A DNA stretch of 64,000 nucleotides, taken from positions 197,091 to 261,090 of the forward strand of contig NC_088651.1 of NCBI RefSeq assembly GCF_964019385.1, given 5' to 3'. The position numbers were made by a program, and so were the translations under genes. The stretch is from Sycon ciliatum. Its lineage: Eukaryota > Porifera > Calcarea > Leucosolenida > Sycettidae. Below are positions 6 through 41,700 of the stretch, piece by piece; the stretch's first letter is position 1, and each line of letters opens with the position of its first letter. Under the pieces are notes generated by a model. It saw only the letters and a program-made list of their open reading frames with translations. It was not told the origin of the DNA and ran no database searches.

Positions 6-319
6 TACCGTATGTCCGCACCTTTAAAGCCATGGCGTTATATTCGATTATAAAGTCAGTCTCAGTTATAAAGCCATGGGCTTCATAAATGAAATGACAT
101 TTGAAGTATGTTTTGTAAAAATTAAGGAATAAGTATTATGCTAACAAACTTACAGCCCAGCAGGAAGGGCGAACAAGTAGATTTAGATTGAAATTTCTGT
201 GTGGACTTTAACTTTTATGGCATGGCCTAGTGGATGAGTCATTTTGCATCTATATTATCTGGGAAAGCAGCGGTGTTTTGAATATAAGGCCATGGCTTGA
301 AAGGCGCTGACATACAGTA
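6..319. mobile_element. MITE with TACCGTA/TACAGTA ends and GCCATGG palindromes
   Basis: The ends are imperfect inverted repeats of about 37 bp. The left arm runs from TACCGTATGTCCGCACC into AAAGCCATGG, and the right arm is its near-exact reverse complement, ending CTGACATACAGTA. There is no coding capacity. The internal ATAAAGCCATGGCTT-type palindromes recur in the elements at 25623-26156 and 36523-36822, so these three look like one family. Confidence 0.7.
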
Positions 320-455
320 CTCATTCACAGCAAGACGCACAGAGCCGTTTTGCCATCGTCATCGTTATCGTCACCAACTTACTCTAGGCAGACACACAGA
401 CAGACAGACAGTCAGACGGACAGACAGACAGACACACATGCACACTTAGCCTTAC

Positions 456-38081: not shown

Positions 38082-38778
38082 CCTTCAGCCTCAGCGCAGT
38101 TACTTATTTTTAGTCGAAAAGCAGATGAATTTGATTTATCGGTGCAACACCAAATTACCAGGAGAACATCCAAGCGGCAGGAAGCTAATGGCTTGGCTAC
38201 CCGCTGATCCACAGCCAGAAAACATCGACAGACAATACCAGGGCATACGTGCTAAAAAACAAGAACAACCTAAAGTCCTTGGACCGGCTACTTTGCTTCA
38301 AGCTCTTCCACAAACGCCGTTGTTGATGTTTTCCATTCCTGCACACAGTCTTTTACCATGCCATGCTCGACCGAAAGGAAAGAAGCTGCATCATTCTCAA
38401 ACTCAAAGCATGAAAACCCAAGTGCAAAAAATTCAGTCCGAGCTGAAAAATTTGAAATAATTTGAAAAGGGCATGCGGTTTTACCTCGATTTCCTCCTTG
38501 TTCTTGAGGGTTTGGGGTGGTTTCCTCGGTGTCCTAAGGTTTATGACAAGTTTTAGACAGGTTTCTCGAGGGGCTTTAGTTTTAGTGATGCAATGAACAA
38601 TACAAGATGAATCATGCCCAAGTCTGCATGCATGGTCTGTCGACTGTCGACTGTCGTACATCGTAGTCTCGAACTAAAATTTTGAAAGCAAAACTACGAA
38701 AAAACTGACAAAGGATTGGAACGGAACGCGGCCGGGATTTGTTGGGCCTGTTTTCAGTATTCATGAAAGTTTTTCTCA
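38082..38778. promoter_or_regulatory. Divergent promoter interval, CK1-alpha-like gene and FDXR
   Basis: About 700 bp separate the kinase ATG (38081, minus) from the first FDXR ATG (38779, plus). No transposon end is visible in it, in contrast to the introns on both sides, which suits a kept regulatory interval. No TATA box in a clear position. Confidence 0.45.
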
Positions 38779-41700
38779 ATGAAATATGCATCCCAGTCTG
38801 TCGATATGAATTTTCCTGGGCTTTCGTGCGGATTGCGTCGGTGTGGAAGGGCGGCATGGCGCGTGAAAGCTGTGAACCAACGCCTCCTTCATGTCTGCGT
38901 TGTGGGCTCGGGACCAGCGGGATTCTACACTGCTCAACACCTTCTCAAGGTCAGACGAGTTATTTGATTTTTCTGCGGAGAAAGCCAAAATTTGAAACGT
39001 AGAATTTTTGCACTTCCACCGATTTACAGAAAAAGGAGTGGGATTTTAGGGTGAGGCAAGATACGCACTTGTTATGTCCTGGATCATGGCATGGAAAGTT
39101 TTCACAAGTGACTTTTATTGAAGATACGGTATGTGGATTGCTCCTGCCAACATGACTTTATCTTCTGGACGCTCAATGCGCACGCGGGAAGGATTACGCC
39201 GTTTCCGATAAAATTGCATTTGGTACAAACAAAGTCCGGACTCGGTTTCGAACAGACCGTGACGGGGTGGTATTTTGTACACAAACCGCGCTCCTTTCAC
39301 CCGCTGTGGTCGACCTCTAGACTTGCCAGATTTCTGTACAAGCAGACATATTTGCCTGGAGTTGAAAATCATTTTTACACTTGAACATTGTCAAAATGCA
39401 TTTTTAAAATGCACCTAGATTGATTCAAACCTAAGCCGAAAGGGGAGTGGGGTTTAAAAAAAAAACAGTTTACCGGATAACCGGTTATATGCGACGCGCG
39501 AGCGCTAGACTTGGGCGGTTATGAAACGGTTATCAGGTCGTCGTGGTTACAAGCTGGTTTCATGCACATGTACATGTAGTACAGTCAGACCTCACTTATC
39601 CGGTCCTCTTTTATCCGGATCCCTGGCCATCCGGAAGAAAATCGTTGGTTACTGATTTATAGCATATGCCATGCTTACATACAGTACTGGTATGTGCGTT
39701 CGATTATCCGATTGAGGACCAATTCCCTCGTCTATCCAGATATCCCAGGCCTCACCACCACTGCCGTTTCTGTGCTGCCTTCTCGATACATACGTATACG
39801 TACACTGTATATAATCACGTGCACATTCACATGTCTGAAGGTTTGTGGTTTTTCAATAAAAAAATAAACAAATAATCTACGTGGAGATAAAAGTTTAATA
39901 ATAGCTATGAAAAGTATGAATGCCGCAGACATCACCACGCAACATGACAATTTAGAAACACACAAAACCAAACCTTGAACAAATTGTCATGTTGCGTGGT
40001 GATGTCTGCGGCATTCATACTTTTCATAGCTATTATTATTAGAAAACGTTGAACGGTCTCTGCTGGGATGACGACTACACCATAGCTCAGTGGTTAGAGC
40101 ATCGCTGGCTACAAGCGAGGGTCCCTGGTTCGAGTCCTGGTGGTGACAGTCAATTTTTTCTTCGGACTTTTCCCGTTTGTCTCTTTCCCTCAAACCAGTT
40201 AATATTATTAAATAAATAAAATTAATGTTTTTGTGGAAAACGGATGTGTGCGGTTAAACGAGGTCTGACTGTAGCTGTACTAGTACATGTAGATGATTGC
40301 TAGCAGCAATGCATAGTGTCGTCATGTGCATGCATGCAGTATTCTTGGTCACTCACACGAGTAGGCACATGCTGCTAAAAAATCACGATTCACGTGACAC
40401 GTGGCTAGAGGCCGAGTTTTCCGCATCCTTAGAGGAACGCCACCACCCTTCAAGGATCAAGGCAACTTTGACTGTAATTCTTTTTCACTCGTTGCCAGCG
40501 CTTTTGAGTTGGAAAAAACCCCATGTAGCAAATGGTACAAATTAAAAAAAAGAAAGGACCAAAATAAACGGCGAGGAGACAATAATTTGATAACCGCAAT
40601 GAATAAGACGAGCTGAACCGACATTTGTGTACGTTATTCATGCAATGTAAAATGGTGGAGACGATGTGCAATAAACGATGAAAAAAAGGACCAACATGTT
40701 ACAATATTTTATTCATGTTATCCGTAGTTGGTGTCCAACACATGTAACATTTTAGTCCACTCTTTTTAAAAATTTAATCCTTGGCTCTCCATCCCAGTCA
40801 AATGCTACAGGTTAAAAGTTGATCCAGTGGGAAAAATAATTCGTGTATCAGCAACGAGCGGATTAAGAAGTTCCTGTCATCCTGTTTGCTCGCCGATATC
40901 GCGATGCGCATATTTTCATGTAAATTGTGTCTACCATGGCCAGCATGGCCAGAGGGCCGCAACATTGTCCTAACCAGTACTGCAAGTCAACCAATATTCG
41001 GCGCATATTTATTTTTAGGCTATTTTCGGCCTGGTCATGTTTGGGCGAAAATTTGTTGCGGCCGAAATTTTTTTTCCAAGGTTAAAGGGGAAGTACCGTA
41101 CTCGCGCGATTAGTGCCCCTGGGGCACTATTTTTTCAATGTCCATCAAAGATGGGGCACTATTCAAGAGAGGGCACTATTTTTTCATTGCTGGTACATTT
41201 GCGTCATCCAGCATAAAACAAAGAAAAACAGAGCCTAAAGTGTACTGTAAACGCTCACGACTCCACAGAAACGGGAACAAGACCTGCGATTTTGTTCCTG
41301 AAAACACCAGTGCAAAGCAATGGCCAAGAACATTAGCAAAAGAACACCAAACTTGCACATGGGCTTGGTTACAAGACCCGGGGGGGGGGGGGGCACTATT
41401 CAAGAGAGGGCTTTATTTTTCACTGGCTCTTGGAGAATAGGGTACTATTTGAGATAGGGCACTATTCAAGAGAGGGCTCTAATCGCGCGAGTACGGTATA
41501 CCCTAAAGTCAAATTTTCACCAGTTGAAGTCTTCGGGGTGCTGAGTCGAATGGTCTTGGTCCGAGGAAGCTGAGACGCTCCCTTCCTCCTTTATTCCCAA
41601 TCGAACTCGCGCACTTCCACCGAAACTGGGTGACTGCACCCTACTACTTGTAGATAGAGATTTGTATGAAAAAGTCAGTAAAAACGCCGTTTCGTTCTTA

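Follow-up and report, generated by a model that had tools for sequence, protein, structure and literature searches.

Non-autonomous CCGTA-tipped elements in the sponge Sycon ciliatum are very probably derivatives of several coexisting Passer-type transposon lineages

The window analyzed here, a 64,000-nucleotide stretch of Sycon ciliatum contig NC_088651.1 (positions 197,091 to 261,090), contains 11 elements with CCGTA-type tips, together with CTGTA-tipped, CAGTC-tipped, and putative hAT-like elements (Table 1). The heptamer TACCGTA occurs 30 times on both strands together, whereas a second-order Markov model predicts 4.7 occurrences (no more than 11 in any of 50 simulations). A search for paired TACCGTA ends that tolerated up to 4 mismatches in positions 7 to 25 returned 8 pairs, namely, 7 elements and one cross-pair; in a control with 16 other 7-mers starting with TA, TACTGTA gave 2 pairs and the remaining 15 gave none. 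The single cross-pair joins 3259 with 5316, that is, two related elements. The common TACCGTA...TACGGTA ends described in the first-pass annotation are therefore borne out, and both ends are exact in seven of the nine elements listed there (those starting at 3259, 5014, 8349, 18707, 24506, 20054, and 41094). The element at 6-319 actually ends in TACAGTA (inward-read tip TACTGTA). For the element at 22113, the outer boundaries hold within one base, but the right end near 23645 is degenerate (...CCTACGGTTA, letters read by eye).

Table 1. Mobile elements in the window and their closest long relatives (L, locus in the genome)
Element	Position	Strand	Description
F1	6..319	+	CCGTA element whose tips read TACCGTA and TACTGTA; CCATGG motif in the inner part, as in F9; 20 of 30 inner positions the same as in L074/L075
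F2	3259..3577	+	Internally deleted version of the L068 Passer-type element; bases 1-118 match L068 element 1-118 at 97.5%, bases 146-319 match 2113-2286 at 96.6%
F3	5014..5316	+	Internally deleted version of a Passer-type element related to L060; bases 1-109 match L060 element 1-109 at 87%, bases 124-303 match 2038-2217 at 89%
F4	8349..8539	+	CCGTA mini-element with ends of the L067/L072 type; matches L067 at 80% over 45 nt; similar copies among the genome matches listed
F5a	18707..19005	+	CCGTA mini-element, inserted at TA of an 18-bp tandem repeat; terminal repeat 22 of 23 nt identical to that of L082
F5b	24506..24803	-	Second F5 copy, opposite orientation; 96.7% to F5a over 299 nt
F6	20054..20448	+	CCGTA mini-element with ends of the L077 type; matches L077 at 80% over 84 nt
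F7	22113..23645	+	CCGTA element, L067 end type, 17-bp subterminal repeats; split by nested hAT-like element; 89% over 46 nt to L067
hAT-like element nested in F7	22584..23632	.	8-bp target duplication GAACCTAC at 22576-22583 and 23633-23640; putative class, from duplication length and ends
F8	41094..41498	+	CCGTA mini-element; empty site at 42457; 16 of 30 inner positions the same as in L063
F9	25623..26155	+	CCGTA element, L074 type; right tip lost; hosts nested CAGTC element; boundary set by eye; matches L074 at 76% over 169 nt
CAGTC-tipped mini-element nested in F9	25946..26137	+	80% over 44 nt to L048
F10	36703..36822	-	CCGTA element, single intact tip at 36822; 79% over 52 nt to L075
CTGTA-tipped mini-element	732..941	+	Of the set first reported as ending CTGTAA/TTACAG; tip as in L061/L058, which have DDE_1 ORFs
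CTGTA-tipped mini-element	36080..36275	+	
CTGTA-tipped mini-element	45847..46058	+	
CAGTC-tipped element	39580..40273	+	76% over 55 nt to L047 (CAGT-tipped DDE_1 element)

Joined flanks of 16 elements, 10 of them CCGTA type, were used to search for empty sites (the elements at 25623 and 36703 were each entered with one boundary that is not a real tip, and 22113 was left out). F5a has an empty site with a single TA inside the tandem repeat, the best copy among those listed differing at 1 position in 30, and the empty site of F8 likewise has a single TA, with 3 mismatches in 30. None was found by joined flanks for six further CCGTA elements, aside from four matches of the 6-319 flanks at 5 mismatches, which we take as chance. 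Thus, two of the three exact empty sites claimed earlier are confirmed, as is the TA target itself; the elements are TA-target inverted-repeat mobile elements. An empty counterpart with one TA also exists in locus L074 for the CAGTC element nested in F9 (1 mismatch in 30, letters compared directly).

The sequence just inside the tips had been described as completely different between families, with only 5 bp conserved. Neither statement holds. When nine family representatives are aligned from the tip, a common terminal repeat of about 26 bp, TACCGTA-N4-C-N-C-N3-TATAAGC, becomes visible; positions 8 to 30 (ungapped) show 43.7% pairwise identity versus 25.0% in random sets, none of 5,000 of which scored as high. 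BLAST identifies two kin pairs among the representatives (F4/F7 and F9/F10), and the inner identity is 43.9% without F7 and F10 and 45.2% when F1 is also removed (0 of 5,000 in each case). The same region of 12 partnerless TACCGTA sites shows 25.0% identity. The motif recurs at the left ends of 13 transposase-bearing elements outside the set from which it was derived, with A19 and G23 in all 13, A21 in 12, and C12, C14, T18, and C24 in 11. A repeat length of 26 bp is indicated by the terminal match in F5 and by the conserved columns of the long elements, which stop near position 26. Subterminal copies of the repeat recur at a preferred spacing: the signal is strong over all 31 ends (14.8 with a best offset of 15 to 19 versus 5.45 expected; 0 of 20,000) and less pronounced when the 17 CCGTA ends are taken separately (7.6 versus 3.0; 46 of 20,000), ends within one family not being independent. 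A whole-genome count of the repeat pattern (732 versus 285 for the reversed pattern, only 2.6-fold) is given no weight.

None of the 39 longer open frames of the window has a transposase domain in Pfam, and a 1,021-aa ORF matched only titin chains in PDB (E values of 0.43 to 0.93) and no phage protein. The recommended search for longer copies that encode a DDE transposase succeeds elsewhere in the same genome (538 Mb): elements of 1.7 to 3.1 kb enclose a DDE_1 transposase gene between CCGTA-type ends, and in several of them the reading frame is fully open. Among 24 loci with a transposase at least 29% identical to that of L060, a CCGTA-type pair surrounds the gene in 16, one recognizable CCGTA end is present in 6, and none is present in 2; no CCGTA pair was seen at L066 and L081. 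Of the best 30 DDE_1 loci, 9 have CAGT pairs and in the other 21 no pair was found; a search out to about 1.5 kb around each of the 30 showed no CCGTA-like end. Because full-length relatives with the same ends exist elsewhere in the genome, the ends are probably common by descent and not by coincidence. BLAST links 9 of the 11 CCGTA window elements to an element that carries a transposase gene, but at an E value of 1e-3 it finds no such link for F1 and F8. As judged from the alignments in Table 1, F2 is a clean internal deletion of the L068 element and F3 one of an L060 relative, so that these two match a transposase-bearing element at both ends, whereas the other linked families do so by their ends only. 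The CTGTA mini-elements showed no BLAST link to long elements (at 1e-3 against L061/L058 for 732..941). Signs of recent activity are three full-length L060-type copies at 98 to 100% identity and the best 40 genome copies of F5 by score (itself included) at 97 to 100%.

All 12 CCGTA proteins scanned against Pfam have DDE_1 and HTH_Tnp_Tc5. BrkDBD is found in 4 of them (in 3 above Pfam's cutoff), and CENP-B_N in none (E value of 0.01 or 0.001). The catalytic triad is DD35D in 11 of 13 proteins by script and likewise, by eye, in L077; L074 and L075 read as DD36D by eye, and no triad was recognized in L082. Tigger and pogoR elements, also of the pogo superfamily, resemble the CCGTA elements in having DDE_1, TA-ended repeats, and a similar layout; they differ in their CAGT tip, in the presence of CENP-B_N in some CAGT-tipped proteins of this genome (3 of 8 scanned, L033, L039, and L049), and in a triad of DD29D, DD32D, or DD34D (4 of 6 CAGT-tipped proteins could be read). 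CENP-B_N is usual, though not universal, in Tigger/pogoR. A single undivided Tigger group of CAGT and CCGT ends was considered and dropped, since the tips split by transposase.

In a 24-row transposase tree, each tip class (CCGTA, CTGTA, and CAGT) is confined to one side of one branch. The three classes require 2 changes, the minimum, a value that none of 200 shuffles reached, whereas for the CTGTA class (two rows) 10 of 500 shuffles were equally good. The CCGTA transposases group together with support of 100/100 in 13 rows, which drops to 86/84 (15 CCGTA rows) once the long-branch L082 and L077 and the CTGTA rows join. The trees omit the CCGTA-paired L070, L071, and L079 (broken frames) as well as the CAGT-paired L048 (short frame, no Pfam match) and L052 and L053 (copies with the same score as L051); L064 and L073 were entered as CCGTA on one seen end each. 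Within CCGTA, divergence of the inner repeat follows divergence of the transposase (Mantel r of 0.74, n = 13, 0 of 10,000). In this sample, tip class thus follows transposase grouping, and inner repeats grow apart as their transposases do, which suggests an old clan with a fixed cleavage-site tip and a drifting inner binding site.

The first-pass annotation knew of no described superfamily of this kind. DDE_1 in all CCGTA proteins scanned and a TA duplication at two empty sites place the elements in the pogo superfamily, and its Passer family fits: according to published descriptions, Passer elements duplicate TA, are 1.6 to 4.0 kb long with one ORF, encode HTH_Tnp_Tc5 with or without BrkDBD, DDE_1, and, in almost all members, DD35D, and have terminal repeats of at most 40 bp, most under 30 (PMC7386202; PMC9976928). 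The CCGTA elements share the TA duplication, short repeats, single ORF, and domain set; they differ in the many lineages that coexist here with miniature derivatives. Their triads are mostly DD35D, with one DD36D subclade and L082 unread. By signature, then, the CCGTA transposases would be Passer. The most serious alternative, still an unlikely one, is that these pogo lineages lie near published Passer yet outside it. In 8 of 12 proteins, BrkDBD either scores weakly or is not detected, and the DD36D subclade and the target flanks depart from the description; one fish Passer is reported to insert in human cells at TA within AAGTACTT, which is one species' preference and lies outside the family definition (PMC9976928), whereas the 48 half-sites here favor A at -3 (26), C at -2 (18), and A at -1 (20), with AAG beside TA in only 2. 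Against this alternative, L056 and L060 combine BrkDBD, HTH_Tnp_Tc5, and DD35D as published, and the description also allows HTH_Tnp_Tc5 alone.

Convergence of several unrelated transposases toward a CCGTA tip is far less probable. The tip does serve several transposase lineages, with pairwise identities as low as 23% in an alignment of 13 proteins, and in this respect the earlier idea of several transposases was correct. Convergence is nevertheless not needed, because the CCGTA transposases group together and the inner repeat has common conserved positions, which also means that the families are not unrelated; the sample was gathered through DDE_1 and L060 searches, and CCGTA elements with an unrelated transposase would lie outside its reach. 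That a single transposase reads only the 5-bp CCGTA end plus a hairpin shape, moving unrelated DNA between such ends, is hardly credible: it would explain the identical tip, but inner positions are conserved in window families and long elements alike, differing inner repeats pair with differing transposases, and the partnerless sites lack the inner motif. Finally, ISL2EU elements (PIF/Harbinger related), which share a two-base duplication and short repeats, are ruled out, as their target is A/AT/T with AT duplicated (PMC4482050), whereas TA is duplicated here and the transposase is DDE_1.

We therefore regard the CCGTA elements as, very probably, non-autonomous and mostly miniature (MITE) derivatives of several coexisting Passer-type lineages (pogo, DDE_1) in one genome. 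The finding named beforehand as one that would remove the shared-end idea, a match of each family to a separate known transposon with longer, distinct repeats, is half borne out: the repeats are longer and family specific inside, but the tip appears to be shared by descent. From what is known of the superfamily, the transposase of the long copies would bind the inner part (about positions 12 to 26) through its helix-turn-helix domains, as well as the subterminal copies spaced about 17 bp apart in many ends; the DDD catalytic domain would cut at the TA-CCGTA tip, and the element would be pasted into a new TA, which becomes duplicated. We propose that the tip is constant because the cleavage site lies next to the conserved catalytic core and that the inner part varies because binding domain and binding site drift together, separately for each transposase. 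Passer-type elements are known; the tip rule may be new.

Tentatively, and with less than even confidence, this can be extended to pogo as a whole: the second base of a C-N-GT tip might be a clade-fixed label (CCGTA in Passer, CTGTA in a neighboring clade, and CAGT in Tigger/pogoR) that the catalytic core keeps constant, with the inner half and the subterminal copies coevolving with the helix-turn-helix domains and many lineages in one genome, each with its own inner code. The paired ends and transposases would then form a natural table of binding codes, and the DNA sites of the human proteins POGK and POGZ might be predicted from it. The main reading already turns an odd-looking pattern into a clean case of one transposon clan with a fixed cleavage tip and a drifting binding site, and because a sequenced transposase and its cognate ends are available for every lineage, it offers a natural data set on DNA choice by paired helix-turn-helix domains. 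The data set bears on POGK and POGZ, which are human domesticated genes, because both are reported to be Passer derived (PMC7386202; PMC9976928); fish Passer copies are reported to be active in human cells (PMC9976928).

Outside this genome, the repeat DNA patterns gave 0, 0, and 3 matches in IMG/VR, with no inverted partner seen for the 3, and 0 and 17 matches in prokaryote genomes; the best partner within 6 kb of the 17 prokaryote loci and of two of the three viral loci has at least 9 mismatches in 26. A literature search with the end letters gave no relevant description among the matches listed. TA-bounded internal eliminated sequences of Paramecium are similar in being short, variable DNA with a weak common TA-bounded end resembling Tc1/mariner ends, but the paper's description includes no long inner motif such as the CCGTA elements have (PMC3464196). 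The CCGTA inner profile does not match the CCGTT ends C1 and C2. CAGT ends fit it in part, those of A2 (with a one-base shift) at 0.05 to 0.13% of window positions and those of A3 at 2.1% and 0.4%.

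The elements with CCGTA tips in the window share a hidden inner repeat, with the consensus TACCGTA-N4-C-N-C-N3-TATAAGC. The sequence just inside the tips had been described as unrelated in the first-pass annotation; however, inner positions 8-30 of nine families are 43.7% identical pairwise (one end per family, aligned ungapped from the tip, leaving out F3, kin of F2, and the second F5 copy), whereas random window sets average 25.0% and 0/5000 reached that value. Twelve TACCGTA sites without a partner show 25.0% identity at the same positions. The identity is 43.9% when F7 and F10, relatives of F4 and F9, are removed and 45.2% once F1 is removed too (both 0/5000). 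ATAAG, with at most one mismatch, occurs at position 19 onward in 6/9 ends (0/4000 random sets), and leave-one-out scoring ranks 9/9 ends within the top 3% of positions in the window and 6/9 within the top 0.4%. The letters appear different to a reader because the fixed positions are scattered.

At least eight families had been reported to begin TACCGTA and end TACGGTA. Both exact tips are present in seven of the nine listed elements; the exceptions are F1, whose right end reads TACTGTA, and F7, whose right end near 23645 is, by eye, slightly decayed. TACCGTA is enriched in the window: it occurs 30 times where 4.7 are expected, and the highest count in 50 simulations was 11. If up to 7 mismatches are allowed at positions 7-25, the window contains 20 pairs of TAC[N]GT ends, including a few cross-pairs between neighbors, while 17 of 20 simulated windows have none and three have one. 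When both ends must read TACCGTA and no more than 4 mismatches are allowed, eight pairs remain, including one cross-pair; the corresponding count is two for TACTGTA and zero for 15 other 7-mers. TA is the target: of the three empty sites claimed, two with a single TA exist, in the 18-bp tandem array and in a nearby repeat copy, and the third was not found for CCGTA elements. An empty counterpart of the CAGTC element nested in F9 is present, by letter comparison, at L074, a locus elsewhere in the genome.

The suggestion that longer copies with a DDE transposase lie between the same ends was borne out. At least 150 matches to DDE_1, the pogo-type catalytic domain, occur in the 538-Mb genome (150 of 225 candidates scored). 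Among the best 30, CAGT-tipped inverted repeats surround nine, no pair was found in 21, and none was seen to have a CCGTA-like end nearby; the CCGTA ends came from lower-ranked matches. The transposase of one such locus, L060, has 90 matches in the genome. Among 24 loci at least 29% identical to it, 16 carry a CCGTA-type pair around a DDE_1 gene (elements of 1.7-3.1 kb), six have one recognizable end, and in two (L066 and L081) no CCGTA-type end was recognized. One tip is altered by a single base in four of the 16 (L063, L067, L071, and L074). Five further loci are 23-25% identical to L060: two are CAGT-tipped (L033 and L039), two are CTGTA-tipped (L058 and L061), and no end pair was found in L031. 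L066 also contains a tandem array of a 52-bp unit (34-560; 11 units), in which every unit carries TACTGTAGTAC and, on the opposite strand, TACAGTAAAACCTGTAACTAA, resembling the L028 end.

F2 matches the two ends of the transposase-bearing L068 element (first 118 bases, 97.5%; last 174 bases, 96.6%) and is an internal deletion of it; F3 likewise derives from an L060-like element (87% and 89% at the ends). The ends of F4, both F5 copies, F6, F7, F9, and F10 match a transposase-bearing element by BLAST (E ≤ 1e-3), and F1 and F8 have no such match at that threshold; therefore, 9/11 CCGTA elements are linked. The inner positions of F1 are nearest to L074/L075 (20/30; reached by 0.02% of random positions), and those of F8 to L063 (16/30; 1.45%). 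Because three L060-type copies are 98-100% identical across the full protein and the 40 best F5 copies (of 742 candidates) are 97-100% identical, the copies look young.

DDE_1 and HTH_Tnp_Tc5 were found in 12/12 CCGTA proteins scanned, and BrkDBD lies above the cut-off in L056, L060, and L075 and just below it in L068. The spacing between the second and third catalytic aspartates is 35 residues in 11/13 proteins; in L074 and L075, a count by eye gives 36. Members of Passer, a pogo superfamily family, combine BrkDBD with HTH_Tnp_Tc5 or have only the latter, and nearly all are DD35D; the same source gives TA duplications for every family except Fot and Fot-like (PMC7386202). Passer repeats are mostly <30 bp, elements are 1.6-4.0 kb long, and activity in human cells is reported (PMC9976928). 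On this basis, we take the CCGTA elements to be Passer-type, a match to the published description rather than to named Passer sequences or repeat letters. That they are close to Passer but outside it is made slightly more probable by their target flanks: fish Passer inserted at TA within AAGTACTT (PMC9976928), whereas the bases favored here at -3, -2, and -1 are A, C, and A (ACA-TA-TGT), and AAG precedes TA in only 2/48 half-sites (window and long CCGTA elements). As Passer-type elements, they are new members of an already known kind of transposon. CENP-B_N, a mark of Tigger and pogoR (PMC7386202), was found in L033, L039, and L049 among eight CAGT-tipped proteins scanned.

Tip classes follow transposase groups. 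In a 24-transposase tree, a single branch separates the 15 CCGTA rows from the rest (support 86/84; 100/100 in a tree with 13 such rows). The seven CAGT rows are set apart in the same way (100/100), as are the two CTGTA rows (100/100), which adjoin CCGTA when the tree is rooted at its midpoint. Two changes, the minimum possible, account for the three classes (0/200 shuffles as good), in a nonrandom sample: CCGTA rows come from lower DDE_1 matches and L060 relatives, CAGT rows come mainly from the top-ranked DDE_1 matches, and no label could be given to loci lacking a recognized pair. This search bias somewhat raises the odds of convergence of several transposases on a shared tip, an explanation that we nevertheless consider wrong. 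Transposases and inner repeats co-diverge within CCGTA (Mantel r 0.74, n = 13, 0/10000). One transposase requiring only a 5-bp end, the other proposal of the first-pass annotation, is also a wrong explanation; the annotation was correct and sharp-eyed in what it observed, not in how it explained it. That the second base of the tip marks the transposase group may be a new rule: no statement of it was found in passages of PMC7386202, PMC7325037, PMC9219625, PMC8472432, and PMC9976928 or among the papers listed by literature searches, and since supplement and Repbase repeat sequences lay outside that search, it may already be known. Similar CCGTATTTTTCGGA-TATAAGTCGCAC ends occur in fish repeats.

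The CTGTAA/TTACAG elements of the window have the same tip as L061 and L058, where DDE_1 genes lie between TACTGTA ends (those of L058 seen as two single sites and paired by hand). They have no BLAST match to these loci at 1e-3, so what links them is tip and layout. TACCGTA contains a CpG, and decay may therefore be all that lies behind some TACTGTA or TACCATA tips within CCGTA families (F1, L071, and L074).

Transposon ends often consist of two parts, an inner motif that is bound and a few bases at the terminus that serve cleavage (PMC3464196). Here, long copies would make the transposase, whose helix-turn-helix domains would bind the inner motif and whose catalytic domain would cut at the tip. 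Many ends have extra inner-core copies about 17 bp apart, which may be additional binding sites (best self-match offset 15-19 in 14.8/31 versus 5.45 expected, 0/20000); the spacing is weaker for CCGTA ends alone (7.6/17 versus 3.0 expected, 46/20000).

Elements and other features of the window
Feature	Positions	Remarks
F1	6-319	CCGTA element
F2	3259-3577	CCGTA element
F3	5014-5316	CCGTA element
F4	8349-8539	CCGTA element
F5a	18707-19005	CCGTA element
F5b	24506-24803	CCGTA element
F6	20054-20448	CCGTA element
F7	22113-23645	CCGTA element
F8	41094-41498	CCGTA element
F9	25623-26155	CCGTA element
F10	36703-36822	CCGTA element
CAGTC element	25946-26137	nested
hAT-like element	22584-23632	within F7; ends TAGGGGTCAAACGGGTGTACC; exact 8-bp duplication GAACCTAC (whole 22576-23640)
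18-bp tandem repeat	18478-19167	CTGGCTATGGGGATATGT; interrupted by F5a
26-bp repeat	8739-9472	~28 copies
Inverted repeats	27378-28467	TAGAGAGGTTCCGGGGTACGATTTT ends, another TA-ended family; similar start at 1437-1718
Repeat cluster	41523-44601	dense; long repeats, inverted and tandem, among them a tandem of 296 bp (42545-43134); arms reach 321 nt (94%)
53-bp tandem repeat	57275-58335	~20 copies between inverted TACAGCGC arms
Open frame	60839-63904	minus strand; 1021 aa; Ser/Thr/Ala-rich, repeated blocks; no domain above cut-off in the domain scan
tRNA-like sequence	40076-40148	tRNA-Pyl (cta) by ARAGORN; Rfam tRNA match

The hAT-like element sits inside F7 and was therefore inserted after it. 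The tRNA-like sequence, to judge from the eukaryote-like genome, is probably a tRNA-derived repeat or pseudogene.
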